Of a stretch of 64,000 bases of DNA, positions 3,807 through 39,227 are shown one piece after another. The notes under the pieces were generated by a model that saw nothing but the letters and a program-made list of their open reading frames with translations, was not told the DNA's origin and searched no databases. Origin of the DNA: a virus; IMG/VR virus record IMGVR_UViG_3300021963_005763, positions 1 through 64,000 of that record, one strand, 5' to 3'. The translations under genes were made by a program, and so were the position numbers. Numbering within the stretch: position 1 is the first letter of the stretch; every line of letters starts with the position of its first letter.

Positions 3807-4286
3807 ATGAAAAAAATACTTAGAAAACTTTTTGGTATAGAGGAAATGGAAAGGTCTATTGCCGAAACCATTCAACGTCGAATGGAGGCAGAACAGGCTA
3901 TCCAAGCAGCAGAAGAAGAAAAGAATCGACTATTAAAACAGGTAGAACAAGAACTTGCTGACGCAGAAGAAGCCAAAAGACTTGTTCAATTAACTCCAAA
4001 AGAATTGGCCACTGAGCGTAAGGAACCTTATGTAGCAGTATTAGAAACACATGTCAATAAAGATAATCTTAGAAATGGGTTTTTTGAGCTTGACTGGAAT
4101 GAATATTTCGTTGTACAATTAACAGAAGCAGGCTACAAAGGTGCTTCAGAAGAAGAAATTGTAGATGCTTGGTTTAGTGAACTTTGTCGTAATGTTGGGG
4201 CAGAATCTGGTGTAGATATGGATCGCCGTGGTTCTGGTTATGTTAATCGTGCTCTCCGTGATGACGGAAAAACAGAGGTCTCATGA
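3807..4286 (+). CDS. Conserved phage protein with N-terminal coiled coil
   Basis: A 159-residue protein starting one base after the queE stop. Residues about 10 to 65 are a charged, Ala/Glu/Lys-rich heptad region predicted by eye to form a coiled coil. The remainder is globular, with RNGFFELDWNEYFV and a DAWFSELCRN motif. I recognise the C-terminal pattern as a type often found near RNase H in T4-like aquatic phages, but its function is unknown. It overlaps the RNase H gene by four bases (ATGA), indicating translational coupling in the queE to RNase H operon. Confidence 0.75.
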   Translation: MKKILRKLFGIEEMERSIAETIQRRMEAEQAIQAAEEEKNRLLKQVEQELADAEEAKRLVQLTPKELATERKEPYVAVLETHVNKDNLRNGFFELDWNEYFVVQLTEAGYKGASEEEIVDAWFSELCRNVGAESGVDMDRRGSGYVNRALRDDGKTEVS

Positions 4287-17541: not shown

Positions 17542-20133
17542 TCATTCTATCCTTATTATTTCATCTAATTCATTTGTTATCGGAACATAATTCTCGTCTA
17601 ATATTCTTGGATCACCACCATAGAAATAGACGTCAGGAAGTTCAGCTTCTTTCTGTCTAATAAACTTAGCCTGTCTAACTTGGCTAGTAAGTAAAGACTC
17701 TGTTCCTGTCCAAATTCTACCTTTTCTATGAGTTATTGTTAAGGTAACTCCAGGTTCTAATCTGTCACCAATATTTAATTTAATCTGTTGGGTAGAGGTA
17801 GTAATTTCAAATTCAGCTAATAAAGTTGTTAATTCTGTACTACTAAAATTTTCATATACCTGTCTTTCAGTCTTACTGAGTGGTCTACCTCCATAGAAAA
17901 CTTTTACCTGATCTATTGCTGGTATAATATAGTTGCCGCCCATATCTGTTTCATTGTTAAGATTAATACCCAGGCCAGTTTGTGTATTAAACGCCGAAAT
18001 AGTGTAGGTTGTAGTATTTGTTGTGCTGGTTGTAAAGACATAGACACTATCTGAAGCGCCTGGTATAGTTTGTAATACGCCTTGATCTATTATTTTACTG
18101 CCTAAATCACTCCATGGAGCAGGACCAGTTCCGCCTGTTCCTCTTCTTAATTGATACAAAGCATTGTCACTTCTACCAAAAAATTCAATACGCTCTCTAT
18201 CTAATAGCACTACACCTGGAACATTTTTAGCATCATTAACAGGACTTAATCTAGATTCGTCGTTTATATAAATTGTTTGATCATCAGGAGCAACTAATGC
18301 TGTAAGAAAAGTAGTATGCTCTTTACTCAAACGTTTATAACTTGTTCGTTCGTAAAAATCGCTGAATATTCTAAATCCGTATACTTGATTAGGAATATCT
18401 GGACGCTTTATGGATGTTGCCATTATAACTGAACTTGGATTCAAATCATAATCATAGGATATCTCGATAGTTCTAGCATCCGATAATACTCTGAAGTCTA
18501 TTCCATGTACAAGAGGAATCCCATCAACATAGACCCACACATAACTATCATCGAGAATAGCTCGTATGTAAGAAAATCTCCTCGATGGGGAGTACTGAAA
18601 TATTTCAGTTTCTAAAAATAAATTATCATGATTGCTAAAACTGGTTACTTTAACCGTTGTATCATTCAAAACACTAGGCTCAAATCTCAAAATATTTCCA
18701 CTTATTATATAATCATAGAGGTTACCTGTTTCACGTTTTTTGTTTACAATCGATATATACACACCATTTTGATATAGCCCAGGTTGTAGAATAATACGAT
18801 TATTAGCGAAATCATAATTAAAATCATATCCTGATCTAATAGGAGTACCATTAGCATAGACCAATATATCAGTAGGATCATATGGACCAATAGGTGTATG
18901 TCCATCATCAAAAAAACTAAAAAATCTATTATTATCAGTAACAAAATAATTGCTAACCTTAGGCGGCATTAACCTACGTCTTATAGTATTCAAACTACCT
19001 GTGCCTGTTTCAACAATTACCTTATCGCTAAAAGGTTGCCATGAAGCTAGCGTTGTATTCAATGTAAGTGTTTGACTACCGCTTACAGTGTAATAATCCT
19101 CTTTAATTTTATTAAACTTTACATCAGGTATACTAAAGAACCACGCAGATAATTGATGCTGCCCTGGGGGTAAATTATAAAAATGTATTGCTGCTCGTGT
19201 ATCTTTGTCTTTATGTATGTTAGGATTACCCTGCCAAGATTCTTCTAAAATATAGCCAAAGTTATTTGTTGATGATGTAGTGAGAGCTGCAACTTCTTGC
19301 CCATCTGCCAGTACATACACATTTTTAATTGATTCAAAACTTGCTAAACTTTCTAATATTACAAATGATGTAACAGTATTGTCTACATAGATTGAGTTTT
19401 CATCGATTAGTCCTGTACCACCTATTCTTACAAAACTATATCCAGCAGTGCCTCTGCTTGGTTGCGGTGGTAATACAATATTTTTACCTTGAATAAAATA
19501 TTGATTACTTGTTGTAAAATTAGTTGTAGTAGATCGTTGAAAAATTTGATCATTAAATGTTACAATAAACCCAGCTGCTGATTCAATACTACCAGTAATT
19601 TGATTTGTTACAGTTGTATTTGCCTCAACTAAAAAAGATCCTGACAACACAGTTGCATATGTTTCCCCCGCCTGGGTATATACATTAATGCCCAGGCTAT
19701 CTGTAGTATGGCCTGGTACTAACTCTTCTGGGGCAAAATCATGTTGTGGAGACATGAATTCGCCACCACTTATGACAGTTTCATTAGAATTAGTAGCTAA
19801 TGCCGAAACTGAATATCCATTTTGCCAACTACCTGCATCTAACGACAAATCTGCGGCGGCAGGTTCAAAATCGTATTTCCAAAATTCAACCCCTGGATCA
19901 GAATACACTGTAGCACTGAAAATGTAACATGTACCGGATGAAAGGTTATTGATTTTTATCAAAGCTCGGCCACGTAGTTCTGTATCTTCTAAAAGATTAT
20001 ACCAAATGGTTGTACCTGTGGTTGCTATTAGAGATTCGTTAACATATACCACAGTTCTAGAAATATCAGCCAAAAGATTATCAGTTACAATGATTGCCGA
20101 ACTAGCTGTAGTTGTTTGATCAATAGTTCTCAT
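17542..20133 (-). CDS. Large baseplate/fibre-associated structural protein
   Basis: An 863-residue protein whose ATG overlaps the stop of the giant upstream gene (TAATG). The N-terminal third carries beta-rich sequence including EFWKYDFEPAAADL and ISGGEFMSPQHDFAPEEL, then repeated strand-turn units with DDGHTPIGPYDPTDILVYANG and YVDGIPLVHGIDFRVL, which look like tandem copies of one beta module (a declared name, a GxDF motif and a following strand). The C terminus is more soluble and charged, containing QVRQAKFIRQKEAELPDVYFYGG. It probably sits next to the giant baseplate protein; T4 gp8 or gp10 would be the positional counterparts, but I see no direct match to either. Confidence 0.6.
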   Translation of the reverse strand: MRTIDQTTTASSAIIVTDNLLADISRTVVYVNESLIATTGTTIWYNLLEDTELRGRALIKINNLSSGTCYIFSATVYSDPGVEFWKYDFEPAAADLSLDAGSWQNGYSVSALATNSNETVISGGEFMSPQHDFAPEELVPGHTTDSLGINVYTQAGETYATVLSGSFLVEANTTVTNQITGSIESAAGFIVTFNDQIFQRSTTTNFTTSNQYFIQGKNIVLPPQPSRGTAGYSFVRIGGTGLIDENSIYVDNTVTSFVILESLASFESIKNVYVLADGQEVAALTTSSTNNFGYILEESWQGNPNIHKDKDTRAAIHFYNLPPGQHQLSAWFFSIPDVKFNKIKEDYYTVSGSQTLTLNTTLASWQPFSDKVIVETGTGSLNTIRRRLMPPKVSNYFVTDNNRFFSFFDDGHTPIGPYDPTDILVYANGTPIRSGYDFNYDFANNRIILQPGLYQNGVYISIVNKKRETGNLYDYIISGNILRFEPSVLNDTTVKVTSFSNHDNLFLETEIFQYSPSRRFSYIRAILDDSYVWVYVDGIPLVHGIDFRVLSDARTIEISYDYDLNPSSVIMATSIKRPDIPNQVYGFRIFSDFYERTSYKRLSKEHTTFLTALVAPDDQTIYINDESRLSPVNDAKNVPGVVLLDRERIEFFGRSDNALYQLRRGTGGTGPAPWSDLGSKIIDQGVLQTIPGASDSVYVFTTSTTNTTTYTISAFNTQTGLGINLNNETDMGGNYIIPAIDQVKVFYGGRPLSKTERQVYENFSSTELTTLLAEFEITTSTQQIKLNIGDRLEPGVTLTITHRKGRIWTGTESLLTSQVRQAKFIRQKEAELPDVYFYGGDPRILDENYVPITNELDEIIRIE

Positions 20134-23100
20134 TACAATAACTCTCTAAAATCTCCACCTAATGGTAAGTTACCACCACCGGTGCTTCCCCCACTTGTAG
20201 GCGCTATATCTGAATACACATAACAATCAAATACACCCTGTGAAACAACTGCTCCACCTGATGTTTTAGCGATTTGAATAGTCAAATTAAATCTGCCAAA
20301 TGCGCTGGCAGTATCGGCTAATGCTCTAGCATACCATCCCAAATTACCAAATACTGCTGATGTTTCAGCAGTATTTACTGTAACCCAATTTCCTGTAATA
20401 GCGCCTGAGGCAAAATCTGCGTAGGTTAAGGTATTAGCAAAACCTGGGCCAGTAAATTCTACTGTGCCTTGCCATTCATTTACAGGCTCAACAATACCTC
20501 TTACATAATATGTAGACAAGGAAGTATTGACTGCCCATGTCTGAGAAGTAGGTTTATTAGATAAAGCTTCTGCTTGATCGTATATATAAAAATCAAATGT
20601 ACCTGTATTGTTTATCCTAATATTGGAATAGGCTGTATTTCCATTTACTGTATAACCATAGACAGGCACATTACCATAGACCTGATTTAATTGATCTAGT
20701 ATATAAATTGTAGCACTGTTAACTGTCTTACCAGGCAATGTAATCCAAACTACTTCAGTACTTTCTAGTCCAGTCGTAGCAGCATCGCTAGAAACATTGA
20801 AGGAAATGTCTGCGTATTGACCACCTGGGTTAACTGTACCGCCATCAACCATTACAAATGTTCCTGTATATGTTGTAGTGTTTAAATCGCTTACTGCAAC
20901 AGTACCGGTAATAACAAATGGAATCACTGTGCCCGCATTTACATAGGTAGTTGTTAACCTAAATGTAGCAGTTGATCCTTCATAAACTGAAGGAGTGAGA
21001 GAAGTTAGTTGATAAGTGCTTGGTTGGGTTAAAGAAGTATCTAGAATAGAAATGCTAGTAACCGTAGTAGTAATTGTTGTACTATACGAGTTAACATTTG
21101 TTACAGTGCTAATGTCTAATCCGAACGACATTATTTCTGTACCTTCGGTTAGGAAATCTTCAGTAAACTGTACATCAAAGCTAATCGGTAAATCATCTTC
21201 GCTATAGAATGTAATCCAATCTGATACAAGAGTATTGGCGGTTATGTCACCGGATGTGATGTTTATACCAGACCCAGTAACTCTTGCTCTAATACCATCA
21301 CTGGCAAAATCTAGATTTGATCCAGCTACGGTAAATTTAACAACTTCTCCCTCTTTGGCAGATGTTACAACTGCTCCATCAACGTTCCTAGCAGTAAGTG
21401 ACCATGTGCTCATACCTAATGGACGGTTTCTCAGTTTCATTGACTTGTTAGCAATGATCTTAGTGCTTGTACTCGAAGCTGTAGTAATCCACGAAACAAC
21501 ATTTACATAATACGTTTCTGTATTAAGTCCACCATTGGTTAATGTATTAACAGCATTAATTGTAGAACTAGTAAGGAAAGTAATTGGCAAGCTAGTAGCA
21601 TTGGTAGTAATTACTCCTGTTAAGCCTCCAACAAAATCTGCAGCAACTATATTGGTTCCTGTAATATAATACCAGTATGTTCTGCCTTGTCCAAAATCTA
21701 CATCATTTCCACTTATGGTCCAGGTAGCTGTATATCCTTCCATCATGCTAGGAGCACTTGAACTGAGGTAATAATCAGAAAATATACAATTGCCAACATA
21801 GGTGTTGTAATTGCCAATTAATCTGTTTTGTGGCTCAATTGTTTCTAATAAACTGTATGTTCTCAACCTAGATGTAGTAGAACCAGCTGTAGTTAAAACC
21901 TGTAATGTGCCTGTTGAAAGAGCTATAAAAGTTTTGCTACTAGTGATTGTTGATATTGATTTTATCCCATCAAATCCAGTGGCTGCTATTCCAGTAATCT
22001 CTATCACATCACCTGCTCTCAAAGCGCCATTAAAGGGAGTCATAGTTTCAAAGGTTATAGCCGAACCTGCCAGAGTAGATGTACTAGACGCAAATTTAAT
22101 CAAATAAGTAGCAGTACTGATTTGTATACTATTATTAGCAGCATTAACAGACACAACAACTGTGTCAGTCCTTACTTTACGATACGGTGTGTTTAGGAAA
22201 TTTAAAGTTTGGCCAGGAACGATACCTGTTGTAGTATTAAGGAATAATACTATAGAACTACTAGATGCAGTCGAAACAACTCTAGCTCTAGAATAATAAC
22301 TTGTAAAATCATTCCAACCACCGCCATTATCATAGACAGTACCAGTTGACAAGATAGGAGTTGTATAATCAAAAGCCAATCCAGTTAGCTGTCTGCCAGG
22401 AAACTCTAATCCTGTCATTAAAATAGGCAAATAATCACCGGGCATAGTAGATGAAGGTGTATAATAATTGTCTACTCTGTCTATGGCATTATAAAGATTG
22501 ATATTTTTAGTATAGTTAATTTTAAGAACTTTTCCAGCGGCTGGCAAATAATTTTTGAATATGAATTTAGAATGATCCTTATTATACCCGTTTTCATCTT
22601 TGCTAAAACTTATAATGTCATAATCAGAACTTAAAACTAACTTTCTATCTAACGTAGCAACAATATTAAATTTATTTGTATCAGCCTGATACGGTAATTC
22701 ATAATCAAAATTTAATCCGTTAGTTGTAGTAGTGTAGGATACTGTAGTTGCCCCGACTTCACCTGTCCTAGAATACCTATCAAATTTCAAACCAATAACA
22801 TTTTTACGTGTTGTGGTATTTGTTAGAATAACAGACGCAGTTGCTCCAGATCCATTACCTCCGCTAAATGTCACGTAGGTTAATCTATCGTATCCCAATC
22901 CTTCTCTGGTTACAACAATTTTGTAAACTTTACCATTTCTAATATATGCTTGTGCTAAGGCAGGGATTGAGGGATTACTATAAGAATTTATTGTAACTGA
23001 CGGGGCACTAGTATATCCGCTACCGCCATTTGCTATGATAATTTCTTTGACTCCGTAACTATAATTATCTGTCCAATCCTTCCAAGGATAGGTTAGCAAA

Positions 23101-26100
23101 ATACTGGAATTAGTAGAATCAGTTACAACTTTTTGTGTAGTAGTGAATGTACCTAATGTTGAATTATAATATGAAGGTAAATCAAAATCTGTAGTGTGCA
23201 TACGAGCATTTTCTAAATATTCATATGCGCTGACAAAGTTTCGTACCTTAGTCCTATAAGGCTTAATTTCTTTTATGTAATCTTCAATATACTTACTGCT
23301 ATCTAATGTATAAGAACTGCTGGTATTGAGATAGGAAATACTATTTTTAACTGTTATAAAACTAGTCTTAAACGCCCAATCTAATAATTTTTGTTCTGTA
23401 AGAGCATACTTTACTCCCTTAAAGAACATTAGGTTCCAATAAACTTTAAAATCATCTACAAAAATATCTTCTTTTAAAGCAATAATAATATTGGCTAATT
23501 CTCTATCCGGTAATTGATCAAACAACGTCTCATCTATACTGAGTTTGTCATAAGCATAGTCAGATGTAGAAATATTCCATAAATTATCATTAAATTGAAT
23601 AGTTCCATTCTGTAAATAAACAATTTTATAATCCTGAGAAAAATCTCCATTTAATGATTTTTCTAGTACAATAAAATTGCCATTTCCAGAATTTAAAATC
23701 TTAATATAATCACCTATATCTGTATCAACCAATGTGTCTAACTGAAAAACATCATTTATTGTATACCTAAATCCCTTATATGTGTCATAGTCCGATGCAC
23801 GATAATCTACATAATTCCAATATAGAGTTGTATTATATAACTGTGTTCTAGATTTGATCCAAATTCTTAAAGCATAATCAAATTTATAAAAACTCCATCT
23901 ATCATTACTATTCGAATCTACTGCTACAACAGCAACATGTTCCCTTACGGTTAAGACAGGATTAGAAACAAAATTACTACCTGAGTTTGTTATCATAGCA
24001 GAAATAACTTTACCCTGACTGTCTATCTCTGTTTTGATTTCTGCACCACTTAAATTATTAGCTATGGTCACCTTAGGGGCATATCCATAACCATACCCCT
24101 GGTTGATAACATCTACTCTAATAATTTTACCATTATACACACTACATGATAATTGCGCACGTAAGAATGTTTCTGTGCTTACATCTACTAATTGATCAAA
24201 TTCGTCAACTAATAAGTCATAGTCACCAGAATCTTCTGCTGGAATAGGTTCAAAACTATTAAGTTTGGCTAGATTTCTATTTCCAACAATAATGTTGTTA
24301 GCTAGTATATCGTTAGCATACCCTAGACAATTTCTCAAAGCTTGAAATCTATCTTTAAATATTGTCTGCTGTGGTCTAATTCCTAATCCATACTTTTGTC
24401 TGAAACTTAAAGACATATCGGGTACTGGATTTCCAATAGAATCTCTGCCAATCAGACTGTCTACAAATTTCTTATCTAGTAAGGACACAGGCATTGAAGC
24501 ACTATCACCCTCAGTCATTATAACCCATTCTGTATGTCGGGGAATTGAACTTTTTACACTATCGAAAGTAATATTAGCGCTGATATTTTTAGCAATTAAA
24601 TTGCCTTGAATATTTCCAAATGCTAAAGAATTTGTAGACAAAATATTGGCATATTTTAATCCATAGCCTAAAGGATCAGCAATGACCCTAGAAACTTCAT
24701 ACGCTGTAATCTTTCTTGATTTTACATTAGGTGCAGTAACCTTATTTTTGACCCAATAAAAATAAACATTCTCAAAGGATCCGGTCACAGTGTTAAGAAT
24801 TTGTTTTACACTCACTACACTATTGTCTGGATACTTAGGCTGACCACTTATACCTCTAGATAGTCCCCCTGGAGTATCAGCTGCCACTGCCCATTCGCTC
24901 GGTAGTAAATCAGATTTGACCCATTCATAGATATCTATACTGGCCCCGGGAAACAATTTGCCCCAATTATTTTTCCTAAAAATTTCATTACCTTGTTCAT
25001 ACCAAATATATTTGGCTGTGGATAAATCCCACCATAATTCTCCAACATGATCTTCAATCCAACTATTTTTAGAATCATTAATCGTGTTAGCAATGCCTAA
25101 AGAATAAATTGCAGGATCTGCTGATGTCTTGTATTTTAATTCTTGTTCAGCAATACCGGGTATTCTTCCTTTCAACGGATCAAATACATCTAGATAATCT
25201 AATAAAATTTCATTCTTAGTATCAATTAAACAAATTCTTCTCATCGTGTCAATATCTACAGTAGGTTCTTGTAAACGGAGAACATTCCATGTTTGACTTA
25301 GAGTATTTGAGACCTTAAATTGATAAAATCGTGAAATATCGTTAGAAGATGAAGAAGCAGAGTTTGACGGAGCGCCAACAAAAATGCTGCTATCGGTTAC
25401 TGCTACAGATTTGCCATATCTACCGTTGGCGTAGACATTATCCGGTAATAATTCATCTGCCTGAACAAAATATCCATCTAATTTAGTATATGTATAAGCA
25501 GCTCCTGAATCCTGGACACTATTAATAAATTTAGTTTCATTGTTATCAAATGTAGTTTCACCTAGTAGATCGATTTTGTTTTCGTAGAATTTAACATATT
25601 CAGATTTATTAGTACCCAGAGCAGTGATAACCAAGGTGTCTTCATCTGGACTTATGTCTATAGATTCACCAAATAGTAAATCAGAATTTTGAATTGGATT
25701 TTCTAAAATCTGACTGAGTTCATATCTACCAGAAGACTGTTCCGCATAGACAGCAACTTTACCATAGGTATTATAACTACTCAATGGCTTAGAAGATCCA
25801 ACAAAGATATATTTTCCTGACTTAGATACTGCTAGACTTTGTCCAAATTCATCATTGTATCCAAATGGTGAATCTAAAGTTTGCTTCCAATATAGGCCAC
25901 TATTAAATATTTGAACAATACCTTCTTGCCCGAAGTTGAAGTAAGATGGCGCACTAATTGCAATAGTAGAGCCCGCATCCGAACCAGCGATAGCCCAACC
26001 CCATTTACTACCTGCATTCAATGATACAGTTGCCGTGGTAATTAATTCTATAAATCCTACATATGCGGTAGCAGCACCAACAGTTGTCATACTAGTGCCT

Positions 26101-29100
26101 GTAAATGTAACTGTTGGAGCTGATGTATAACCAGTTCCTCTATTTGTTATAATAATACTTGTTCCAGTATTTCCTGTCTTGACTAATACTGCTGTAGCCG
26201 TAGTGCCTCCGGGCTGATTAGGATTAGAGAACGTAATAGATATCGAGCCAGTGCTAACAGGAGCAGTAGTTATTATAACATTTGCTACAGTATCGGTCCC
26301 AAAATTTGTTATAGAAGTTCCTGTGCCTGATATAGAATAAGCAAAAACAGTGCCAGTTCCTAGATATGAATCATTGCCAGGTGCTCCGACTAATAATGTA
26401 GTGGCCGAATTTAATCCTACCTTATTAATATACAGACTGTGCCCAAATCTAGAATTTTGATGAGTAGCAGTTGTAGCAGCAGTTTGAAATCCTGTAGTAG
26501 CAAAAGGTCTTGTAAAGGCAAATTTTGTTACTTCGGCTGTTCTATTCGAATTTTTTGTACTAACTTTTACTACACCTTCTCTGATATAACCACGAGATAC
26601 ATTTGTGCTACTGGTGATTGCTACTAGATAAGACGTCGATGTTGTTGCTCTAACATTTGTAGCACTAGGTGCTCCTGTAATGTAAAGATTTTTTTCAACA
26701 TCGTAAGCAAGACTATATCCAAAATCAGTCGTAGTATTTGTTTGACAAAATATTTGCCCGTTACTATTGAGTACATAATCAAAATTAGCTGTTAATCTTT
26801 CGTTAGACAGTTTCCTGTAGACGGCTACTTTACCAAAATTATATGAATTAACACTATGGTATGTTGGACTAGATACTAGCAGTGTATCGCCTGCAAATTT
26901 TAAACTAAAACCAAAACTTTGTCTTGCAGGAGATTGAGCTGTAGTGAACTCAGTGGCACTATTAAAATTTTTAATTTTTTCTAATACCGTCCATTTTTGA
27001 TCCTGATTTTTATCTACCCAAATTTTAGATCCATAACCATATCTAAATAAATCTGTTGATTTTGAGAAAGCAGCATAATCACTGAATCTTACTGGTTCAA
27101 ACTTAAACAGACTTCCATAATGAACAAGCGGCTCATTAACAATACCAGCCAATGTAGAATCTACTGTGAATTGATTAGATTTGTTGATAGTCTTAACAAT
27201 ATAAACGCCGTCTACTTGATAGTTAAATCTAACAACACTGATAATATCACCTGCTATTAAGCCATGATTAATATCAGTTACAAAAGTTATATCAATTCCT
27301 GGAGAATTTACATAAACACCCTTTATCTTTGCTCTTTGATTCGAATACCTATATACAGACCAATCACCGTTTTCTAAAAATCCTAACCATATTGTTGTAC
27401 CATCTTGAATAAGACTATTGTTAGCTATGTCTAGTAAACTATTTTTACTATAGGCAGTAGTAGTTACATCGTCTAATCTAACATATCCTGCGGTAGTTAA
27501 TTTAATATTGTTATCGTCAAAAGTTCCATTGACTGTTACAAAGGTGCTGGTTATCGAATAATTTGTAGGAGCAATTAATAAATCAGTCGACGAAGTGTAA
27601 TGTACAATACCAGATGTATTTTCGGTCAATTGGTCAGTAAGTGTAACCAGATATGGATTTTCTAAATATGAACCTTCTAATAACGGAAATTCAATTTCTT
27701 TGAAGCTGGATTCTGATCCATACGATCCTACTCTAAATGCCCATTCTTCTTTAATCTCTATACTACTATAATCTCGATTTTCACCAGCTTTGGCAATATT
27801 ATCTATGGCTTTCTTCGTACCTTTATCTCTTATATATCCTTGATAATATTTGTATTCAGCCTTGGCATTGGTTATTAATTTACTTAGATACAACCTAGGA
27901 GTATATCCAATGAGATGCTGAGCTAGGTCTTGTTGTTTAACATCAAAATTATCTATATCTAAACTATAAAAATCTTCAAATTGTTGTGCCTTGTAATCAA
28001 AATTAGGCAAAAGTTGGCTCACAGGTTTTCCGTCTAACAAGGTCCATTTAGTAAAATCAAACGTAACATCATACAATATTCTTTGATTAGCTGAATAATA
28101 AAGACTATTGAAAATCACTATTTGACTTGGATAGTACTCTTTGTAGGGCAACCAATTTGTTATTTTAATTTGATCATAGATAAACCCTGGACTTCTAATG
28201 TCTCCATTCCATCCCTTAGTTCTAAATCCAGATAATTTTATTCTCTTTTGTCTATAGCCTGTTGCTGCATCATAAATTGTATCATTAAAAACTGTAGTAT
28301 TGTTCAATACAAGTTCATGCTCTTTTTGTATTAAATTAATCTTGGCAAAAAATATCCCCTCTTCTGTGTTTTTTGTTTTAATTACACAGCTACCGTCTAA
28401 TCTTGAAATGTCGAAACCATCTCGCGGAAATAGTTGTCCGTCTGATTTTTGTAAAGAGTATTCATAATTATCAGCAAAAAGATTATCAACAATAGCGGTA
28501 GTATTATCAACTTTCAAATAATCCGCAAATGGTGACAGTGTGATTAAATTACCATCTGCCCAATTATGTACACCCCAAAATGCTAATTCTTTGCCGCTGA
28601 AATTCCAATCAATAACTTCATTGAGGTCAGGGTTGAAATAATCAAAAACAAAACCTTTTGTCTTTAAATATTCTCCATAGCCTAAAATTACATCATAAAC
28701 TTCTTGAATAGACCTAAATTCAGAATTATAATTTACTCTTGATTCTACAGATTCAAATTTCTTAGGTATAGCAATTCTCAATCCACCTTTGGTAGGTAAT
28801 TCAGGTAATCTAGCAAAGAATGTAGGGTTGAAGGTTGCCTGGGCAGCATGAGAGACCTTTACACGATAAAACTGATTACTATATAAAACAATTTGACCTT
28901 GTTTATAAAACTTATTGCTCGATCCTATTTCAATGTTAGACAATGTAGAAGAATCTAGATTTGGTTGCCATAATACATAATCTTCATCTTTGCCACCGAC
29001 TTTTAAAACTGTATCATTATTTGTATGAATTGCCTTTAGAATAGTAAAATAAGGTGCTTGTCTATCATATCCTCTAATTATGAATCTATCGCTAGTTTTC

Positions 29101-32100
29101 TGAACTATGACTCCAGATATAGAAATAGAAGAAATTGGATTACTGGAATTTAAAAATAATTCATAATCTTCAGGAGGTAACAATAAACCAGGGCTAGCTG
29201 ACTCAGGATCAACAGCATTAATTTTAACTTGTAATTTTTCTTTACTGGTAAATCCCCCTAATCTATGTACAAGATTAAAGGTCAGATATTTTAAATCCTG
29301 AGCTAGGTGTTCAGTATAATTTGAATTTTTACCAAGACCTCTTTCTAAAACTAGATTGATAAACCCTGCTGTAATTTCATTGTTATATCCATCTATCTTA
29401 ATTTTCCTTGGATCAACATGCTGCATGTCATCTTTATATACTAATCTATCAGCATGATTACGAATCATCCTAGAAGTATCTAAGAATCTACTACAATAGA
29501 TATTTGGATATAACAAAGCATTTACAATATTCACAGCAAATGGATAGAACGTGCTATTACGCCAAGTAACCTCTGCTGGTCCGAAATCTCCAAATTGCCA
29601 ATCTGCCTGGTAGTCGTTTACAGTTGAATGCGAAACTAAAAAGTCTAAAGGATTTCTAAGATTACCATTTGAATCTACAGGAATAATACTACTTAGACCA
29701 GGACGTCTATATCTAGTTAAACTATAATCAGAAGATAACTCACCCCTTCTATAACCTTCTTCTAGATCAGACCAAAGTAAAACATTAGTAGAGCTATATG
29801 GGGCAGACCCGTATAAATCATTCCACCATGTTGGTTCAACTGTATATCCTAACATTTCCCAAGGATGTGTATGAGGACGATCTGTATCATAAAAATATTT
29901 GAATATAGATCTCCATGAACCTGATAGAACTTTATTAGTTAGGGTATTGACAGAATTGATATAATTGTATGTTCTATAATTTGAAGAATTATATATGTTA
30001 TTTGTATTCCAATCTACATTGAAACTATTAGTCCAACTGGCAAATTCTTTTTCTAATAAATTATTATATTGACTTAATGTATGTTCTGTATAATGAAACG
30101 CTCCTGGTAAATTATAAATGGCCTCACCAGGGTATATAGTATTGTATTTGACCTTGATATTATTATAAATTCTTTTTTCTAATTCTAAAATAACATCATC
30201 TCTATAATCATTGAATGCCTTAATTAAACTTCCATCATGACACTGAATCATAGTTTGAGGTGTAGTAATATATCTATCATCCTCAAATATCTCAGGTACA
30301 AACTTAGCGTACATGCCAAGTTTCGTAGGTGTAGGAGGTACATAAGAACCTAAAGTATCAGTATAGATATGAAATTCTAAAGAATCATCTATAGATAGCC
30401 CTATGAGAAATTCTACAGATCCTTCTAGTTTGTTGAATATGTAATCTTTACCAAAGATTAATTGCTGTGAATTTTTATATACTAATACTGCTTGATGACT
30501 TAGGCTTTCTAGATCAAATTCTATATTAATTGGATAAGATGTAAAATAAGCAGAGTTTACAGTAACCTTCCTAATAGTTTTTGCTGTGCCATATGGCACC
30601 ATATCTGATCTATAAAAATTGCTTTCTAATCCCTTGGCTTGATTAATTTGAGTTAATACTGCGTCTACAATTTCTATAGGATCATTTTGATTTGGATATT
30701 CAGAAATTAATTTTAAGAAGGTAAATCGCCATTGCGAATATTGGTTAGCTACAAATCTAATAGAATCAATAAGACTATGATTTTTGTTACCTAAAAATAT
30801 CATAGGCAACGCAATTGGATCTTGGTTTTGAATAAGAACTGTGCCCTTTTTAGCGTAGGCTATACTGTCACGAATAGGATCGATACTTATTGTGCTCCAT
30901 AAGTTATCTTTCTCTAACATACTATCAAAATGATCGGATAACTGACTTAAAGTAAGAGTATCGAAAATATCATTTAGAGGATTATTTAATAAGTTTAATG
31001 GAATATCGTAATAGTAATTACTAACGGGCGTACTTGTTGTATTCCATTTTACAATAACTTGACTATTTTGATTGATAGATTCATTAAATTGTAAAACTAT
31101 ATTACTGCCAACAAAGGTAGCAGTAACAGAGGCTTTCATTCCATTTATCTTAGCATCAACTGTACCATAGGGAATATAAGGTAAGCTGAAAGCTTTGCTA
31201 ATTAAACTGCTTGTAGAAGTTGCCGTAACTAAAAAGTTTTCGACTACAGGTGGATAATATGAAAATCCAAAATTATATGTGTTTAGTAATTTGTAAAGAT
31301 CTGGGTTAACTAAATCCCATACTTTATAATATCCATTTGAAATAAAATTATTTTTAGTTACACCATTTTCAATACTAGTAAAATAATCAGAAGCCACATA
31401 GTTCTTAAATAGATAACCACCTATCCCTACAGATGTTGCGGATTTTTCTACAGGAAATCCTAAAATTGGATCTATTGCTCCCTGTCCAATAGAATAACCA
31501 AATATTTTACTTCCTTCAAAATTATTATCTAGAGATTCATCAGAAAAGCTAACACCATTTTTATCATATAAATCAAATAGAGGGGCTTCATTTCTTACTG
31601 TATGTTGCTGGCTTAATTTCCATTGTTTACTGCTATCTTTATAGTGAAAAGATTTACCTGCGTAGACATTTCCATAATTTATTGACACCGATGCTTGGTC
31701 TACCACACCTGAATCAGAAGCTTCAACCAGTGTAATTTGATTTGTAGTTGTATCAAACACAGTCTGATATATTTTATTCCTAGCATAAAGATCTTTAGCA
31801 TTGTTAAAGATTATTCTATATCCTTCTTCTAACAATATTCCATCTACGTAATATCCAACATTACCAGGTATTTCTATTAAAGGAAACTCAGTTACATCAT
31901 CAAGTAAGTCAACATTTTTAATACCAAATCTTCCAAAATTATACAAAGGAAGATAGGCATAAAACTCAATAATAGGCCTTTGTGCTCTAGAGGCATTACT
32001 AATATCTACATCAGTACCGTTTAAATTAGCTGTAGTTTTTATAACATCTACATGAAACCACCTATTATATCTAGACCAAGGATTAAGGTCACCACTCAAT

Positions 32101-32846
32101 CTGTTTATTGTTACATATTCTGGTACAATGGCTAATTTTTTGTCTGAGTCAAAGGGAAAACTATCAAATCCAGAATTATCAAAAACTTCATTATAAGTAG
32201 TGGCTAAATCACCATTGGGCTGTAATAGATTATAATCTAAGAATTGTATGTAATCTCCAACACCTTCTACAATATATTCTGTACCAGATGAAATAGTAAG
32301 TGTACCTGTTGAGTATGTAGCAGTAAATACTACCTTCATGCCGTTGCTAAGTTTAACTGAATTATTAATATTATAACTAGATTGACCGAATGCCAATAGA
32401 GGATTAATGTTTAATAAAATTGGATCTGGGCCAGAAGGTAACCAATGATATTGATCGTAGTTGACTAACTTATCCCAATCAATTCTAGGATTGTAAGAAT
32501 AATGTTCAAATTTTAGAGTGCTTGCTAAATTATCTGTTAAACCACCTGCATTCTTTATTTCATTTATTAAATCTTCATAATTAACTAAATCAGTAGGTTG
32601 TCCTAATTTATCTCTGAATACCAAACCAGGTATAAGTTGTTGTCTAGCTCTTACAGGGGTAGATTCACTTATGTAAGTATCTGTAACAGGATTAAAATTC
32701 GCAACTTCAGAGGTACCTACAAATCCTTCTATTCTTTCTAATTCAGGAGTTTGTATAAATTGGTCAAGTGTACTCGATAAAAATCTAGCATTTTTATCTG
32801 TCTGTAGATAACTCGGTAAAAGATTGACTGATTTTTTCTCTGCCAT
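20133..32846 (-). CDS. Giant 4237-residue structural protein in gp7 position
   Basis: One uninterrupted 12.7-kb reading frame directly after gp6, where T4 has the gp7 wedge gene (about 1030 residues). The N terminus (VNLLPSYLQTDKNARFLSSTL, then TPELERIEGFVG) resembles very large proteins of T4-like aquatic phages. Around residues 1970-2500 there are at least six repeats of the form FG-x-S-L ... GAP or SSP (for example FGFSLKF, FGYSLAYD, FGHSLYIN, YGKSVAV with VGAPS), consistent with an FG-GAP beta-propeller as in integrin alpha chains. GxGYxxxPxVT modules occur near 2240, 2913 and 3269. Residues about 3820-4050 hold two Calx-beta-like domains (EGSTATFRL). A baseplate wedge and adhesin role is inferred from position; no frameshift is seen. 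Confidence 0.75.
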   Translation of the reverse strand: MAEKKSVNLLPSYLQTDKNARFLSSTLDQFIQTPELERIEGFVGTSEVANFNPVTDTYISESTPVRARQQLIPGLVFRDKLGQPTDLVNYEDLINEIKNAGGLTDNLASTLKFEHYSYNPRIDWDKLVNYDQYHWLPSGPDPILLNINPLLAFGQSSYNINNSVKLSNGMKVVFTATYSTGTLTISSGTEYIVEGVGDYIQFLDYNLLQPNGDLATTYNEVFDNSGFDSFPFDSDKKLAIVPEYVTINRLSGDLNPWSRYNRWFHVDVIKTTANLNGTDVDISNASRAQRPIIEFYAYLPLYNFGRFGIKNVDLLDDVTEFPLIEIPGNVGYYVDGILLEEGYRIIFNNAKDLYARNKIYQTVFDTTTNQITLVEASDSGVVDQASVSINYGNVYAGKSFHYKDSSKQWKLSQQHTVRNEAPLFDLYDKNGVSFSDESLDNNFEGSKIFGYSIGQGAIDPILGFPVEKSATSVGIGGYLFKNYVASDYFTSIENGVTKNNFISNGYYKVWDLVNPDLYKLLNTYNFGFSYYPPVVENFLVTATSTSSLISKAFSLPYIPYGTVDAKINGMKASVTATFVGSNIVLQFNESINQNSQVIVKWNTTSTPVSNYYYDIPLNLLNNPLNDIFDTLTLSQLSDHFDSMLEKDNLWSTISIDPIRDSIAYAKKGTVLIQNQDPIALPMIFLGNKNHSLIDSIRFVANQYSQWRFTFLKLISEYPNQNDPIEIVDAVLTQINQAKGLESNFYRSDMVPYGTAKTIRKVTVNSAYFTSYPINIEFDLESLSHQAVLVYKNSQQLIFGKDYIFNKLEGSVEFLIGLSIDDSLEFHIYTDTLGSYVPPTPTKLGMYAKFVPEIFEDDRYITTPQTMIQCHDGSLIKAFNDYRDDVILELEKRIYNNIKVKYNTIYPGEAIYNLPGAFHYTEHTLSQYNNLLEKEFASWTNSFNVDWNTNNIYNSSNYRTYNYINSVNTLTNKVLSGSWRSIFKYFYDTDRPHTHPWEMLGYTVEPTWWNDLYGSAPYSSTNVLLWSDLEEGYRRGELSSDYSLTRYRRPGLSSIIPVDSNGNLRNPLDFLVSHSTVNDYQADWQFGDFGPAEVTWRNSTFYPFAVNIVNALLYPNIYCSRFLDTSRMIRNHADRLVYKDDMQHVDPRKIKIDGYNNEITAGFINLVLERGLGKNSNYTEHLAQDLKYLTFNLVHRLGGFTSKEKLQVKINAVDPESASPGLLLPPEDYELFLNSSNPISSISISGVIVQKTSDRFIIRGYDRQAPYFTILKAIHTNNDTVLKVGGKDEDYVLWQPNLDSSTLSNIEIGSSNKFYKQGQIVLYSNQFYRVKVSHAAQATFNPTFFARLPELPTKGGLRIAIPKKFESVESRVNYNSEFRSIQEVYDVILGYGEYLKTKGFVFDYFNPDLNEVIDWNFSGKELAFWGVHNWADGNLITLSPFADYLKVDNTTAIVDNLFADNYEYSLQKSDGQLFPRDGFDISRLDGSCVIKTKNTEEGIFFAKINLIQKEHELVLNNTTVFNDTIYDAATGYRQKRIKLSGFRTKGWNGDIRSPGFIYDQIKITNWLPYKEYYPSQIVIFNSLYYSANQRILYDVTFDFTKWTLLDGKPVSQLLPNFDYKAQQFEDFYSLDIDNFDVKQQDLAQHLIGYTPRLYLSKLITNAKAEYKYYQGYIRDKGTKKAIDNIAKAGENRDYSSIEIKEEWAFRVGSYGSESSFKEIEFPLLEGSYLENPYLVTLTDQLTENTSGIVHYTSSTDLLIAPTNYSITSTFVTVNGTFDDNNIKLTTAGYVRLDDVTTTAYSKNSLLDIANNSLIQDGTTIWLGFLENGDWSVYRYSNQRAKIKGVYVNSPGIDITFVTDINHGLIAGDIISVVRFNYQVDGVYIVKTINKSNQFTVDSTLAGIVNEPLVHYGSLFKFEPVRFSDYAAFSKSTDLFRYGYGSKIWVDKNQDQKWTVLEKIKNFNSATEFTTAQSPARQSFGFSLKFAGDTLLVSSPTYHSVNSYNFGKVAVYRKLSNERLTANFDYVLNSNGQIFCQTNTTTDFGYSLAYDVEKNLYITGAPSATNVRATTSTSYLVAITSSTNVSRGYIREGVVKVSTKNSNRTAEVTKFAFTRPFATTGFQTAATTATHQNSRFGHSLYINKVGLNSATTLLVGAPGNDSYLGTGTVFAYSISGTGTSITNFGTDTVANVIITTAPVSTGSISITFSNPNQPGGTTATAVLVKTGNTGTSIIITNRGTGYTSAPTVTFTGTSMTTVGAATAYVGFIELITTATVSLNAGSKWGWAIAGSDAGSTIAISAPSYFNFGQEGIVQIFNSGLYWKQTLDSPFGYNDEFGQSLAVSKSGKYIFVGSSKPLSSYNTYGKVAVYAEQSSGRYELSQILENPIQNSDLLFGESIDISPDEDTLVITALGTNKSEYVKFYENKIDLLGETTFDNNETKFINSVQDSGAAYTYTKLDGYFVQADELLPDNVYANGRYGKSVAVTDSSIFVGAPSNSASSSSNDISRFYQFKVSNTLSQTWNVLRLQEPTVDIDTMRRICLIDTKNEILLDYLDVFDPLKGRIPGIAEQELKYKTSADPAIYSLGIANTINDSKNSWIEDHVGELWWDLSTAKYIWYEQGNEIFRKNNWGKLFPGASIDIYEWVKSDLLPSEWAVAADTPGGLSRGISGQPKYPDNSVVSVKQILNTVTGSFENVYFYWVKNKVTAPNVKSRKITAYEVSRVIADPLGYGLKYANILSTNSLAFGNIQGNLIAKNISANITFDSVKSSIPRHTEWVIMTEGDSASMPVSLLDKKFVDSLIGRDSIGNPVPDMSLSFRQKYGLGIRPQQTIFKDRFQALRNCLGYANDILANNIIVGNRNLAKLNSFEPIPAEDSGDYDLLVDEFDQLVDVSTETFLRAQLSCSVYNGKIIRVDVINQGYGYGYAPKVTIANNLSGAEIKTEIDSQGKVISAMITNSGSNFVSNPVLTVREHVAVVAVDSNSNDRWSFYKFDYALRIWIKSRTQLYNTTLYWNYVDYRASDYDTYKGFRYTINDVFQLDTLVDTDIGDYIKILNSGNGNFIVLEKSLNGDFSQDYKIVYLQNGTIQFNDNLWNISTSDYAYDKLSIDETLFDQLPDRELANIIIALKEDIFVDDFKVYWNLMFFKGVKYALTEQKLLDWAFKTSFITVKNSISYLNTSSSYTLDSSKYIEDYIKEIKPYRTKVRNFVSAYEYLENARMHTTDFDLPSYYNSTLGTFTTTQKVVTDSTNSSILLTYPWKDWTDNYSYGVKEIIIANGGSGYTSAPSVTINSYSNPSIPALAQAYIRNGKVYKIVVTREGLGYDRLTYVTFSGGNGSGATASVILTNTTTRKNVIGLKFDRYSRTGEVGATTVSYTTTTNGLNFDYELPYQADTNKFNIVATLDRKLVLSSDYDIISFSKDENGYNKDHSKFIFKNYLPAAGKVLKINYTKNINLYNAIDRVDNYYTPSSTMPGDYLPILMTGLEFPGRQLTGLAFDYTTPILSTGTVYDNGGGWNDFTSYYSRARVVSTASSSSIVLFLNTTTGIVPGQTLNFLNTPYRKVRTDTVVVSVNAANNSIQISTATYLIKFASSTSTLAGSAITFETMTPFNGALRAGDVIEITGIAATGFDGIKSISTITSSKTFIALSTGTLQVLTTAGSTTSRLRTYSLLETIEPQNRLIGNYNTYVGNCIFSDYYLSSSAPSMMEGYTATWTISGNDVDFGQGRTYWYYITGTNIVAADFVGGLTGVITTNATSLPITFLTSSTINAVNTLTNGGLNTETYYVNVVSWITTASSTSTKIIANKSMKLRNRPLGMSTWSLTARNVDGAVVTSAKEGEVVKFTVAGSNLDFASDGIRARVTGSGINITSGDITANTLVSDWITFYSEDDLPISFDVQFTEDFLTEGTEIMSFGLDISTVTNVNSYSTTITTTVTSISILDTSLTQPSTYQLTSLTPSVYEGSTATFRLTTTYVNAGTVIPFVITGTVAVSDLNTTTYTGTFVMVDGGTVNPGGQYADISFNVSSDAATTGLESTEVVWITLPGKTVNSATIYILDQLNQVYGNVPVYGYTVNGNTAYSNIRINNTGTFDFYIYDQAEALSNKPTSQTWAVNTSLSTYYVRGIVEPVNEWQGTVEFTGPGFANTLTYADFASGAITGNWVTVNTAETSAVFGNLGWYARALADTASAFGRFNLTIQIAKTSGGAVVSQGVFDCYVYSDIAPTSGGSTGGGNLPLGGDFRELL

Positions 32847-36456: not shown

Positions 36457-36891
36457 TTATTGAACTCTAAGACCTATCTGTTGGTCAAAAGCCAACCTAA
36501 GTGTGCTTGTTTCGTCTGTATCTTTTAATAATAAAGTTATTTCTATAAGAAATCCCTGTTCATATTCATTGACTTTTATGTTTAATGGAGCCACTCTTGG
36601 ATCAAAACTACAAACTGCCTTTATATCTTCTGTAATTAAATTCTTAATTTCATAGGTTAATGGCTCCATAATAAGGTCCCAAATGGCAGTCCCAAATGTG
36701 GGATTCATTAACCTTTCACCCCGTTTTGTATTAAAATGATTGATAATATCTTGTTTAATAAGATCAAAATCAAATAATTTATTAGATCCCATAGGATCAA
36801 CACTACTGTATCCTTTATATAAGTGATACCTAGTTTGTCGTTGTGTTTCAGTGTAGCTAACAGGATTTAATTCTATGTTCTTATAGGGCAT
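36457..36891 (-). CDS. 25: Baseplate wedge protein gp25
   Basis: A 144-residue protein, close to the 132 residues of T4 gp25. The family signatures are LIKQDIINHFNTKRGERLMNPTFG and the IWDLIMEPLT segment carrying the Glu-Pro pair of the gp25-like sheath-initiation fold, followed by DPRVAPLNIKV. In contractile tails gp25 is at the wedge core and provides the first handshake strand for sheath polymerisation. The order gp5-gp25-gp6 is the standard order of T4-like aquatic phages. Confidence 0.92.
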   Translation of the reverse strand: MPYKNIELNPVSYTETQRQTRYHLYKGYSSVDPMGSNKLFDFDLIKQDIINHFNTKRGERLMNPTFGTAIWDLIMEPLTYEIKNLITEDIKAVCSFDPRVAPLNIKVNEYEQGFLIEITLLLKDTDETSTLRLAFDQQIGLRVQ

Positions 36892-36899
36892 GATAATAT

Positions 36900-39227
36900 T
36901 TATTGACTACCTCCGCCTGTTCTAATTGGATTTCCACTACTGTCAACTACTACACCGCTTTGTCCAGATGATAGAATTCCCCCGCTTAGTTGAGCATAAA
37001 AACATTCGTAGAATCCTTTCTTCTTGGCCTTAATATCGGGTGTATTGAATCCCACTGCCTTACAGGCTGCTTCAAAGTATCCTGCGCTATTTTGATCTGC
37101 CCTACATCTGTCTAAAAGATACTTAACACTGACTTCTGCAGCAATAGTAGGGTCATTGAGCAGTTTAGGATTATTAATTAGATCTTGCCCAACCATACCG
37201 CCGTACTTAGCATAGTTTGACCTTCCAGTTAATTGGATATATCCTCTACCAATAAATTTTGCCCCATCGCCTGATTGAGTATTGCCTAAACCCCTGCCTT
37301 TAGCAGTATCAGATCCATATAGGAACTCCGGTAGGCTATTATTAGGATTACCTGCGTATCTCTGTGCTAAAGTCTGGTCACCTTTGAACACACTAGGAAA
37401 TACCTGTAATAATCTAGCAGAACTATAGTTGAAATTTTCTTCTACTAATTTCCATCCACATTCACCACCGGCTATACCTAAAAGCGCAGCAACAGCATAC
37501 GGGCTTGTGAGTCCATATTTCTTACAGGCTGCTTTGAGAGCAGCGATACCTGCTTGAGCAGCCGGAGAATTAATTTGTTTAGCATATTCTGGGCTACAGG
37601 TACCTGGAGGTATCTGTGATTCATTCGCTGATTTTTGTCCTTCCCCTGCGGCTCCCCCTGCAGGAGTGTTAGTATTCGGTGGTACTCCGCTACTAGATCT
37701 ATCTGTTAAACTTACATCAGTAGCAGCTGGACTAAATTTTTCAGGATTAATATTTTCATGTTGATCCCATGGCTCGTGAGTAGGTACACGCTGCATGATA
37801 CTGACTATAGAATTAGGATCCTTATAGAATTTTCTATCTTCCCAACCAATCTCTTTTCTTCTATTAGGCAGGTTATAAAGAGGTAAATCAGGAGGCACAT
37901 CAGCTTTTGAAGCCATAGTCGGTGCCGCAGCAGATGGTCCATTAAGATCAATTCTGCTGCCACTGAGTAGTATTTCTCCGTTGGCTCCGAGGTTGATTCC
38001 TGCGCCACTACCTATGCTAACATGACTTTCTCCGGAAAGATCTATTCCATCATTACCTGAAGCTATAAAACTCTTATTTGATAAAAATTCTATAGAACCT
38101 TCCGCCGAAAATTTTACTGCGTCACTGACATTAAAATCTAACTGTTTTCTTATAGCAATTTTACTATGATCATCCACAGTAAGATAAAGATATCCAGAAA
38201 TATTTGCCTCCATATTGCCCACCGAACGCATATTAATATTTCTTCCTGCTTCTATATTAATATCTCTATCTGCTCTAAAATTGAAATCATTTTCGCTATG
38301 AATACTAACAGAATCTTTTGTATAGATATCTAACTTTCCATGACTGGTCATTTCTATCCAGGCAGTACCCTTGCTATTACCTATGTATATTAGATCACTG
38401 CTATTATGTAGAAGAATTTGATGACCTGTTCTCGTTCTAATTCTTACTAATTCATTCAATCCTGTTTTATCGCCATCATCCATGACAAAACTACTACCGC
38501 CTAATCTACTAACAAATGCTTCTACACCTTCCCTCTTTATAGACTTGTATCCTATCTTGGCCTTTTTAGCACCAGCACTAGTATCAATAGGACCAGGAGT
38601 ACTAATACCAAACACAGAACTAGGTACTTCTCGTCTAGCTCCACTGCTGGTAATTCCTCTAATATTATCTGCTAATAGTCCCTGATCTAACAGTCTATCT
38701 GCGAAAGGATGGACAGGTTTAGGTTTACCATCTGTACTTGTACCTTCTTTAAGACTGCTTTTATGTCTTTCTGCTACAGGTAATACATTGACCTGATACC
38801 TTCTAGCCTGTTCTGCTGTCATTAATACTTCATCGCTAGCAGCTATCCCAGGTACCATATGATTTTGAAAGGGCGACTGAACACAACCAAACCAATAACA
38901 TTGGTTAGGGTCTCCACCTATAAAAATGACCATTACAGTGGCACCTACGTCAGGAGGTACCATCCAAAATCCGTAACTTTTTTGTACATCATTAAAATCA
39001 GATGGATTGTTTCCTTCAAATCTTTCAGATGTAAATCCCATAAAAGGACTACAATAATTAGCTACATAAGTTTCACTTTGAAATTCTATATCACTAGGAA
39101 TGGTTTTTATTAAGGCTATTTCTAGCCTACCCATATACATAGGATCTAAATGATTAGTAACTTCAGCCAAGAATGGACCTGGCGATGGTGGTGGACTTCG
39201 TCTTCTCGATTCAAAATTAGCAGTCAT
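36900..39227 (-). CDS. 5: Baseplate hub/spike gp5-like protein with C-terminal GH19 lysin domain
   Basis: A 775-residue protein in three parts. The N-terminal ~170 residues form a gp5/VgrG-type OB-fold domain (FLAEVTNHLDPMYMGRLEI, YGFWMVPPDVGATVMV, NQCYWFGCVQ). Residues about 260-440 are short repeated strands (IYTKDSVSIHSENDF, NINIEAGRNINMRS) of a trimeric beta-helix spike. The C-terminal ~200 residues resemble GH19 chitinase/endolysin domains, with a Glu in IAGGECGW near 589, ENFNYSSARLL, and GRGYIQLTGRSNYAKYG. In T4 gp5 a GH24 lysozyme sits between the OB fold and the helix; here the muralytic domain is of another family and placed at the end. It would locally digest cell wall during tail penetration. 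Confidence 0.85.
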   Translation of the reverse strand: MTANFESRRRSPPPSPGPFLAEVTNHLDPMYMGRLEIALIKTIPSDIEFQSETYVANYCSPFMGFTSERFEGNNPSDFNDVQKSYGFWMVPPDVGATVMVIFIGGDPNQCYWFGCVQSPFQNHMVPGIAASDEVLMTAEQARRYQVNVLPVAERHKSSLKEGTSTDGKPKPVHPFADRLLDQGLLADNIRGITSSGARREVPSSVFGISTPGPIDTSAGAKKAKIGYKSIKREGVEAFVSRLGGSSFVMDDGDKTGLNELVRIRTRTGHQILLHNSSDLIYIGNSKGTAWIEMTSHGKLDIYTKDSVSIHSENDFNFRADRDINIEAGRNINMRSVGNMEANISGYLYLTVDDHSKIAIRKQLDFNVSDAVKFSAEGSIEFLSNKSFIASGNDGIDLSGESHVSIGSGAGINLGANGEILLSGSRIDLNGPSAAAPTMASKADVPPDLPLYNLPNRRKEIGWEDRKFYKDPNSIVSIMQRVPTHEPWDQHENINPEKFSPAATDVSLTDRSSSGVPPNTNTPAGGAAGEGQKSANESQIPPGTCSPEYAKQINSPAAQAGIAALKAACKKYGLTSPYAVAALLGIAGGECGWKLVEENFNYSSARLLQVFPSVFKGDQTLAQRYAGNPNNSLPEFLYGSDTAKGRGLGNTQSGDGAKFIGRGYIQLTGRSNYAKYGGMVGQDLINNPKLLNDPTIAAEVSVKYLLDRCRADQNSAGYFEAACKAVGFNTPDIKAKKKGFYECFYAQLSGGILSSGQSGVVVDSSGNPIRTGGGSQ

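Follow-up and report, generated by a model that had tools for sequence, protein, structure and literature searches.

The closest described relatives of the gene analysed here are the largest proteins of the Rak2-like phages. Homologs in isolated phages comprise RaK2 ORF070 (3326 aa), CBB_236 (3340 aa), SCTP-2 gp140 (3807 aa), PA5oct gp355 (3857 aa) and Atu_ph07 gp180 (4449 aa), together with proteins of phage Munch (3342 aa), Vibrio phage 2.275.O (3771 aa) and Phosso (4555 aa). In PA5oct, Atu_ph07, Phosso, RaK2 and CBB the gene immediately before the giant one is annotated as baseplate wedge and occupies the position of gp6. The order gp25-gp6-giant is kept in PA5oct, Phosso and CBB, and a small gene occupies the gp25 place before the gp6-giant pair in Atu_ph07 and RaK2. 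The record of PA5oct gp355 carries an ESI-MS/MS note as a virion protein, and CBB_236 was detected in virions with 21 unique peptides and labelled only 'structural protein' in the available part of its description (PMC5259590). A 382-kDa protein of phAPEC6, which directly follows the wedge protein of the baseplate in the published list and was detected with 17 peptides (PMC7247149, available part), would by its size and position be another homolog. The PHROGs family of these proteins, phrog_10938, is filed under 'head and packaging', and the literature found names no function for the largest protein of Rak2-like phages, as far as the available part of the source goes (PMC5259590).

The stretch of DNA under study, hereafter the window, comprises 64,000 of the 103,953 bases of an IMG/VR record from an uncultured virus. 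As stated in the initial annotation, a single gene takes up about a fifth of it (12,714 bases), as one uninterrupted minus-strand reading frame that starts with ATG and contains no internal stop (Table 1). Its product falls into phrog_10938, the Rak2-type giant virion proteins, by homology across the core, and the gene stands in the place typical of this family, directly after a gp6-like wedge gene. With 3326-4555 aa being the norm among the isolated-phage homologs, giant size was dropped as a novelty. The location assigned to the baseplate region was equally well founded, since gp6-like, gp25-like and gp5/VgrG-like hub genes adjoin the giant gene, all upstream and on the same strand. In the hub, a glycoside hydrolase 19 (chitinase-class) domain accompanies phage_base_V and DUF2345 matches, both slightly under cut-off. 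Downstream there are genes for 863, 538 and 202 aa (the last one phrog_11259), followed by three fibre-like genes. A 591-aa protein encoded at 13483-15258 (minus) matches the Phage Tail Collar domain (E 1.3e-5), making it a candidate gp12-like short tail fibre, and shares an N-terminal block (phrog_14394) with the proteins of 338 and 422 aa encoded by the two genes after it. Megablast of the giant gene, and of its counterpart in the related record L141, gave no match among phages, and a PDB sequence search with the whole giant protein, the gp6-like protein and a profile of the C-terminal tail returned nothing meaningful.

Table 1. Position of the giant gene, its parts and its neighbours in the window; residue numbers are those of the 4237-aa protein.
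Feature	Coordinates	Strand	Evidence
863-aa gene (96 kDa), corresponding to the C-terminal part of the giant in fused relatives	17542..20133	minus	
TAATG, one-base overlap between the stop of the giant gene and the start of the 863-aa gene	20131..20135	minus	
Giant gene, 4237 aa, ~472 kDa (calculated)	20133..32846	minus	ORF; phrog_10938 E 1e-299
~550-aa Ig-like/Calx-beta-like tail (predicted), residues 3681-4237, in split-gene relatives only	20136..21806	minus	
Residues 3231-3680, common to fused relatives, ending at the break point	21807..23156	minus	L065 alignment
GxGYxxxP-like module, residues 3275-3282; surroundings match phrog_460 (3232-3351)	23001..23024	minus	
Conserved C-terminal core blocks, residues 2545-3230	23157..25214	minus	blastp map, alignments
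GxGYxxxP-like module, residues 2917-2924	24075..24098	minus	
Seven-bladed integrin-alpha-type FG-GAP propeller (predicted), residues 1959-2523, insert in core	25278..26972	minus	
GxGYxxxP-like module, residues 2237-2244, within propeller, low-confidence loop	26115..26138	minus	
Conserved N-terminal core, residues 1-1735, common to isolated jumbo phages	27642..32846	minus	blastp map, alignments
CBM_5_12-like (chitin-binding type) stretch, residues 1310-1340	28827..28919	minus	16.8 bits (cut-off 26.2), E 0.0072
gp6-like baseplate wedge protein, 1196 aa	32848..36438	minus	phrog_10646 E 5.9e-275; phrog_219 E 1.3e-19
gp25-like baseplate wedge protein	36457..36891	minus	phrog_43 E 7.4e-16
gp5/VgrG-like hub with chitinase-class lysozyme domain	36900..39227	minus	

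Relatives of the core of this protein are encoded by 588 stretches of viral contigs, 80 of which were kept in a total of 102 loci (15 + 80 + 7 from separate searches). A reading frame was obtained at 100 of these loci, in 49 cases closed at both ends and 3719-4904 aa long from stop to stop, and 67 of the 100 relatives (at least 2900 aa, closed 5' end, low redundancy) make up the non-redundant set. Blastp and alignment revealed a variable block at about residues 1850-2520, located between conserved core blocks and nearly missing from RaK2; the stretch between the anchors at 1735 and 2545 measures at least 640 aa in all 67 non-redundant uncultured relatives. Within the N-terminal core, a helical stretch bearing a KGT motif (near residue 1676) may resemble the gpI/gp7 family. 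Modules of the CBM_5_12 type are scattered across the giant family and reach their strongest matches in the C-termini of some relatives (best E 7.1e-15; 63 of 68 sequences scanned, five with short or missing C-termini being left out). As for the several GxGYxxxP modules reported before, three GxGYxxxP-like ones are present.

The most conspicuous of the inserted modules is the apparent FG-GAP block, for which an integrin-type propeller is now predicted by several lines of evidence. Motifs of the FG type are found at residues 1978, 2042, 2134, 2282, 2334, 2392 and 2477, although motif counting alone constitutes moderate evidence, because shuffled stretches contain 1.7 of them on average and up to 7 (2000 shuffles). 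Scanned by itself, the segment of residues 1850-2560 matches FG-GAP_2 with 34.7 bits (cut-off 23, E 2.1e-8), and the same profile matches 57 of the 63 central stretches scanned in the family (63 of 68 with the window included, five stretches longer than 1000 aa being left out). The AlphaFold model of residues 1560-2755, built on 59 of the 67 alignment rows (near-copies and some rows that were partial or divergent being excluded), has a mean pLDDT of 81.8, with the propeller mostly above 80 outside one loop. All of the best 50 matches listed by Foldseek against the PDB are integrin alpha chains (top E 2.0e-13). With VIA-align the model superposes on integrin alpha-M (Z 37.2, rmsd 3.6, 375 residues) and alpha-V (1jv2, Z 35.6); the aligned part corresponds to model residues 400-964, that is, residues 1959-2523 of the window protein, and the rest of the model is barely covered. 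The earlier proposal of an FG-GAP propeller is therefore upheld by its seven motifs, by the profile match above cut-off and by the model. In most of the uncultured relatives examined the propeller is predicted as an insert in the conserved core. In eight isolated phages, Pfam gave no FG-GAP match over the equivalent region, and since RaK2-type relatives keep the giant protein without a detectable propeller, this module appears dispensable for the function of the core.

When compared with predicted viral structures, the propeller model is best matched by long proteins of uncultured phages, and propeller proteins of giant viruses are among the matches as well. A separate 393-aa 'hemagglutinin' of Atu_ph07 (BFVD A0A2L0UZX4) also matches the model (TMt 0.69), which suggests that the propeller exists in this phage group as a stand-alone gene too. 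The titles and abstracts of the literature searched contained no account of a phage baseplate protein with a propeller of the integrin type. The calcium motif of integrins, DxDxDG, is absent from the window propeller and occurs in 3 of the 67 relatives and once in the related record L143. For this reason the designation 'calcium-binding propeller' was rejected, and, with those loops missing, the domain is referred to here as a propeller of the integrin fold and not as an integrin. Sequence identity in the propeller is 56% between the window and L141 (core 55-60%) and 45% between the window and L143 (core 51-56%). Conserved in the former pair to much the same degree as the core, the propeller does not look like a receptor-binding part under diversifying selection.

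Three observations go beyond the initial annotation: the split of the giant gene, the link between this split and a C-terminal tail, and the identity of the next gene as the missing C-terminus. The 863-aa protein, with no family in Pfam or PHROGs, aligns with the last ~800 residues of the giant proteins of relatives. A profile of this end block located it inside the giant reading frame in all 69 loci where it was detectable (67 distinct records, several of them near-copies) and as a separate frame in none, the fused loci including PA5oct, Atu_ph07 and Phosso; outside this count are 34 loci lacking the block whose frame runs off the contig and six isolated phages without a detectable block. The usual trait of the family, a C-terminal block on the same polypeptide, is thus replaced in the window by a separate gene, which we regard as a variant and not as an exclusion from the family, because six isolated relatives show no such block. 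In the alignment with the relative L065, position 3745 is matched by residue 3680 of the window giant and position 3751 by residue 9 of the 863-aa protein. The window thus carries some 557 additional residues, and a stop and a restart fall within a linker of six residues.

The same arrangement was found in a second and a third record (L141 and L143), and a scan with the split sequences yielded 25 loci, 8 of them split and 17 fused. The ~550-aa tail occurs in all 8 split loci and in none of the 17 fused ones, where it was searched together with the 100 reading frames (blastp, among the matches listed, which concern mainly the first part of the query). Nine split records are known in this way with the window included, since two of the 8 scanned loci are on the L141 and L143 contigs; L151 and L152 give identical matches, and the L150 locus covers the second half of the tail, with the core beyond checking. 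As L141, L143 and L147-L154 were found through queries with sequences of the split clade, the proportion of split members should not be read as survey data. A quick tree, based on 2143 of 7670 columns after loose trimming of the rows, groups the window with L141 and L143 in a single clade (SH-aLRT 99); fused members are found in its sister group. In the clade of the window, the C-terminal ~860 residues of the giant are now the separate next gene.

The tail itself looks like three or four Ig-like units. Its model is poor (pLDDT 52, best at ~3940-4045) and matches generic Ig-like domains, with the calcium-binding domains of NCX1/CALX tied among them (Z 8.0-8.8). The Pfam Calx-beta profile (PF03160) finds nothing in the window tail, nor anywhere in the 103,953-base record, and gives matches below its cut-off, at less than 27 bits, in three of seven family tails (best E 4.2e-4), the seven rows being the nine split records without the partial L150 and without L152, which has the same matches as L151. 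From the C-terminal Calx-beta-like domains announced in the initial annotation, what survives is the predicted Ig-like fold, from a poor model; the assignment to Calx-beta is weak, with sub-threshold matches in three of the seven tails and none in the window's own. Used as a query against viral contigs, the window tail gave 9 pattern matches, none of them confirmed, and later alignment-based scans found the relatives; among phages, a search with residues 3500-4237 found no tail. Identity in the tail is 41-42% among the split relatives, the lowest of any part (core 51-60%). Host specificity would thus more likely reside in the tail than in the propeller, which may be a conserved platform for binding or docking. 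The giant of L143 has at its end (L143:9300-9971) a Peptidase_S74 (endosialidase chaperone) domain that is not present in the tails of the window and L141 (23.1 bits for the end alone against a cut-off of 22, and 21 in a longer stretch). Domains of this kind occur in tail spikes and fibres, so the L143 end supports a fibre-like, receptor-side role of the end of the giant and would be odd for a wedge protein.

The gene probably belongs to a jumbo-type phage related to Rak2, PA5oct and Atu_ph07 and codes for its giant baseplate protein, with a core on the side of gp6, exposed propeller and Ig modules and a split C-terminus. The conserved core would assemble in the baseplate beside gp6 and probably make up the wedge arm, the part played by gp7 in T4, and the propeller, the carbohydrate-binding-like and the Ig-like modules would protrude as surfaces for adhesion or docking. 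In the clade of the window, a tail module would have been gained at the linker where the reading frame now ends, leaving the giant with a new free C-terminus that bears its most variable domains, and the old C-terminal part would be made separately by coupled translation and presumably join the same assembly. A place in the particle of this phage, a role in the wedge and adhesion or receptor binding would all follow from such an arrangement. The most likely description is that of a baseplate arm protein presenting adhesion modules, and the merger of a wedge protein with a receptor-binding one, proposed in the initial annotation, is plausible. Points against this reading are the lack of profile similarity to gp7, the conservation of the propeller, its absence from detection in RaK2-type relatives and the filing of phrog_10938 under 'head and packaging'.

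Several other explanations deserve attention. The propeller could be an over-reading of degenerate repeats, as the FG-GAP_2 scores of 14.3 bits for the whole protein and 18.7 bits in a six-frame search of the record are under the cut-off of 23, but the segment score, the matches in most central stretches, the pLDDT and the Z values of 35-37 make this very improbable. Still less credible is an assembly or sequencing error as the origin of the split. The frames of the giant and the 863-aa protein overlap by ~12 bases, so a single indel could separate them, but eight other records share the split, which refutes a sequencing error, and the spacing of stop and start, where both ends are readable, varies from a 4-base overlap (L143, L147, L149) through a 1-base overlap (the window, L153) and direct abutment (L141) to a 6-base gap (L151/L152). 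Such differences over several records exclude an assembly artefact and fit coupled translation. It is more difficult to dismiss the idea, in our view somewhat doubtful, that propeller and tail are not receptor binders and serve as internal scaffolding or as docking sites for other tail-fibre proteins, for instance the collar-domain protein. Integrin propellers bind partner proteins, tail-fibre-like genes lie directly downstream, and the propeller equals the core in conservation for the closest pair; the tail, on the other side, is the least conserved part, and the CBM_5_12-like modules scattered in the family fit surface binding.

Whether the giant is a true, enlarged homolog of T4 gp7 comes close to an even matter, with the balance slightly against it. 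The position claimed for it by the initial annotation stands, as the gene follows gp6 in the gp5-gp25-gp6 cluster, where no other gp7 candidate is seen, and the helical stretch at ~1609-1714 is of low confidence in the model, as would be expected if it folded only with partners. Homology is another question, since no profile match was found between the giant, with five conserved regions of it, and T4 gp7 with 22 relatives, or between these regions and P2 gpI, in comparisons where the gp6 control against T4 gp6 was itself weak (E 3.5e-4, prob 37); comparisons with gpJ, gp6, gp8 and gp10 gave no match either.

The reading of a baseplate arm with adhesion modules, be it homologous to gp7 or not, has practical consequences. 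A propeller in most of the uncultured members examined offers a concrete, testable hypothesis for how the host is held or recognized. The split linked to the tail marks a natural boundary and suggests that the last ~860 residues can act as a separate chain; if these work alone, expression and structural work on pieces of the giant becomes practical. A broader proposal is tentative and rather unlikely: that many uncultured myophages use an integrin-type propeller as an adhesion head within the baseplate, and that in one clade the giant was cut by the gain of a receptor-binding tail at the linker, giving an evolvable free end and a separate subunit from the old C-terminus.

Compared with known systems, the window protein shares with T4 gp7 its place after gp6 and its nature as a large baseplate-region protein, but it is four times longer (4237 against 1032 aa, as noted initially) and no profile similarity to gp7 was found. 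With Calx-beta (PF03160) the tail may have in common an Ig-like fold, predicted in a poor model, NCX1 CBD12 being one of the tied matches (Z 8.6, rmsd 7.9), but the window tail has no match to that profile and no family tail exceeds its cut-off. The giants RaK2 ORF070, CBB_236, PA5oct gp355 and Atu_ph07 gp180 are homologous in the core over residues 1-145, 230-1735/1850, 2520-2850 and 3000-3230, and are alike in giant size and in the place after a gp6-like gene, the protein being a virion component in PA5oct and CBB. The window differs from the isolated-phage giants in its FG-GAP stretch, for which Pfam gives no FG-GAP in eight isolated phages, in having as a separate gene the C-terminal block that is fused in PA5oct, Atu_ph07 and Phosso, and in a ~550-aa tail found in no phage record. 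The propeller resembles that of integrin alpha chains, of which bacterial versions are described (PMC3192720, available part), in its predicted fold (Z 35-37 over ~375 aligned residues, 16-19% identity) and in its seven FG motifs, but sits in a phage baseplate-region protein and has a GxGY module inside. Finally, the Kelch-like proteins of CBB and the RCC1-like protein of GAP32 (PMC5259590, available part) are also virion propellers from the same phage group, but they are encoded by separate genes and belong to other propeller families.
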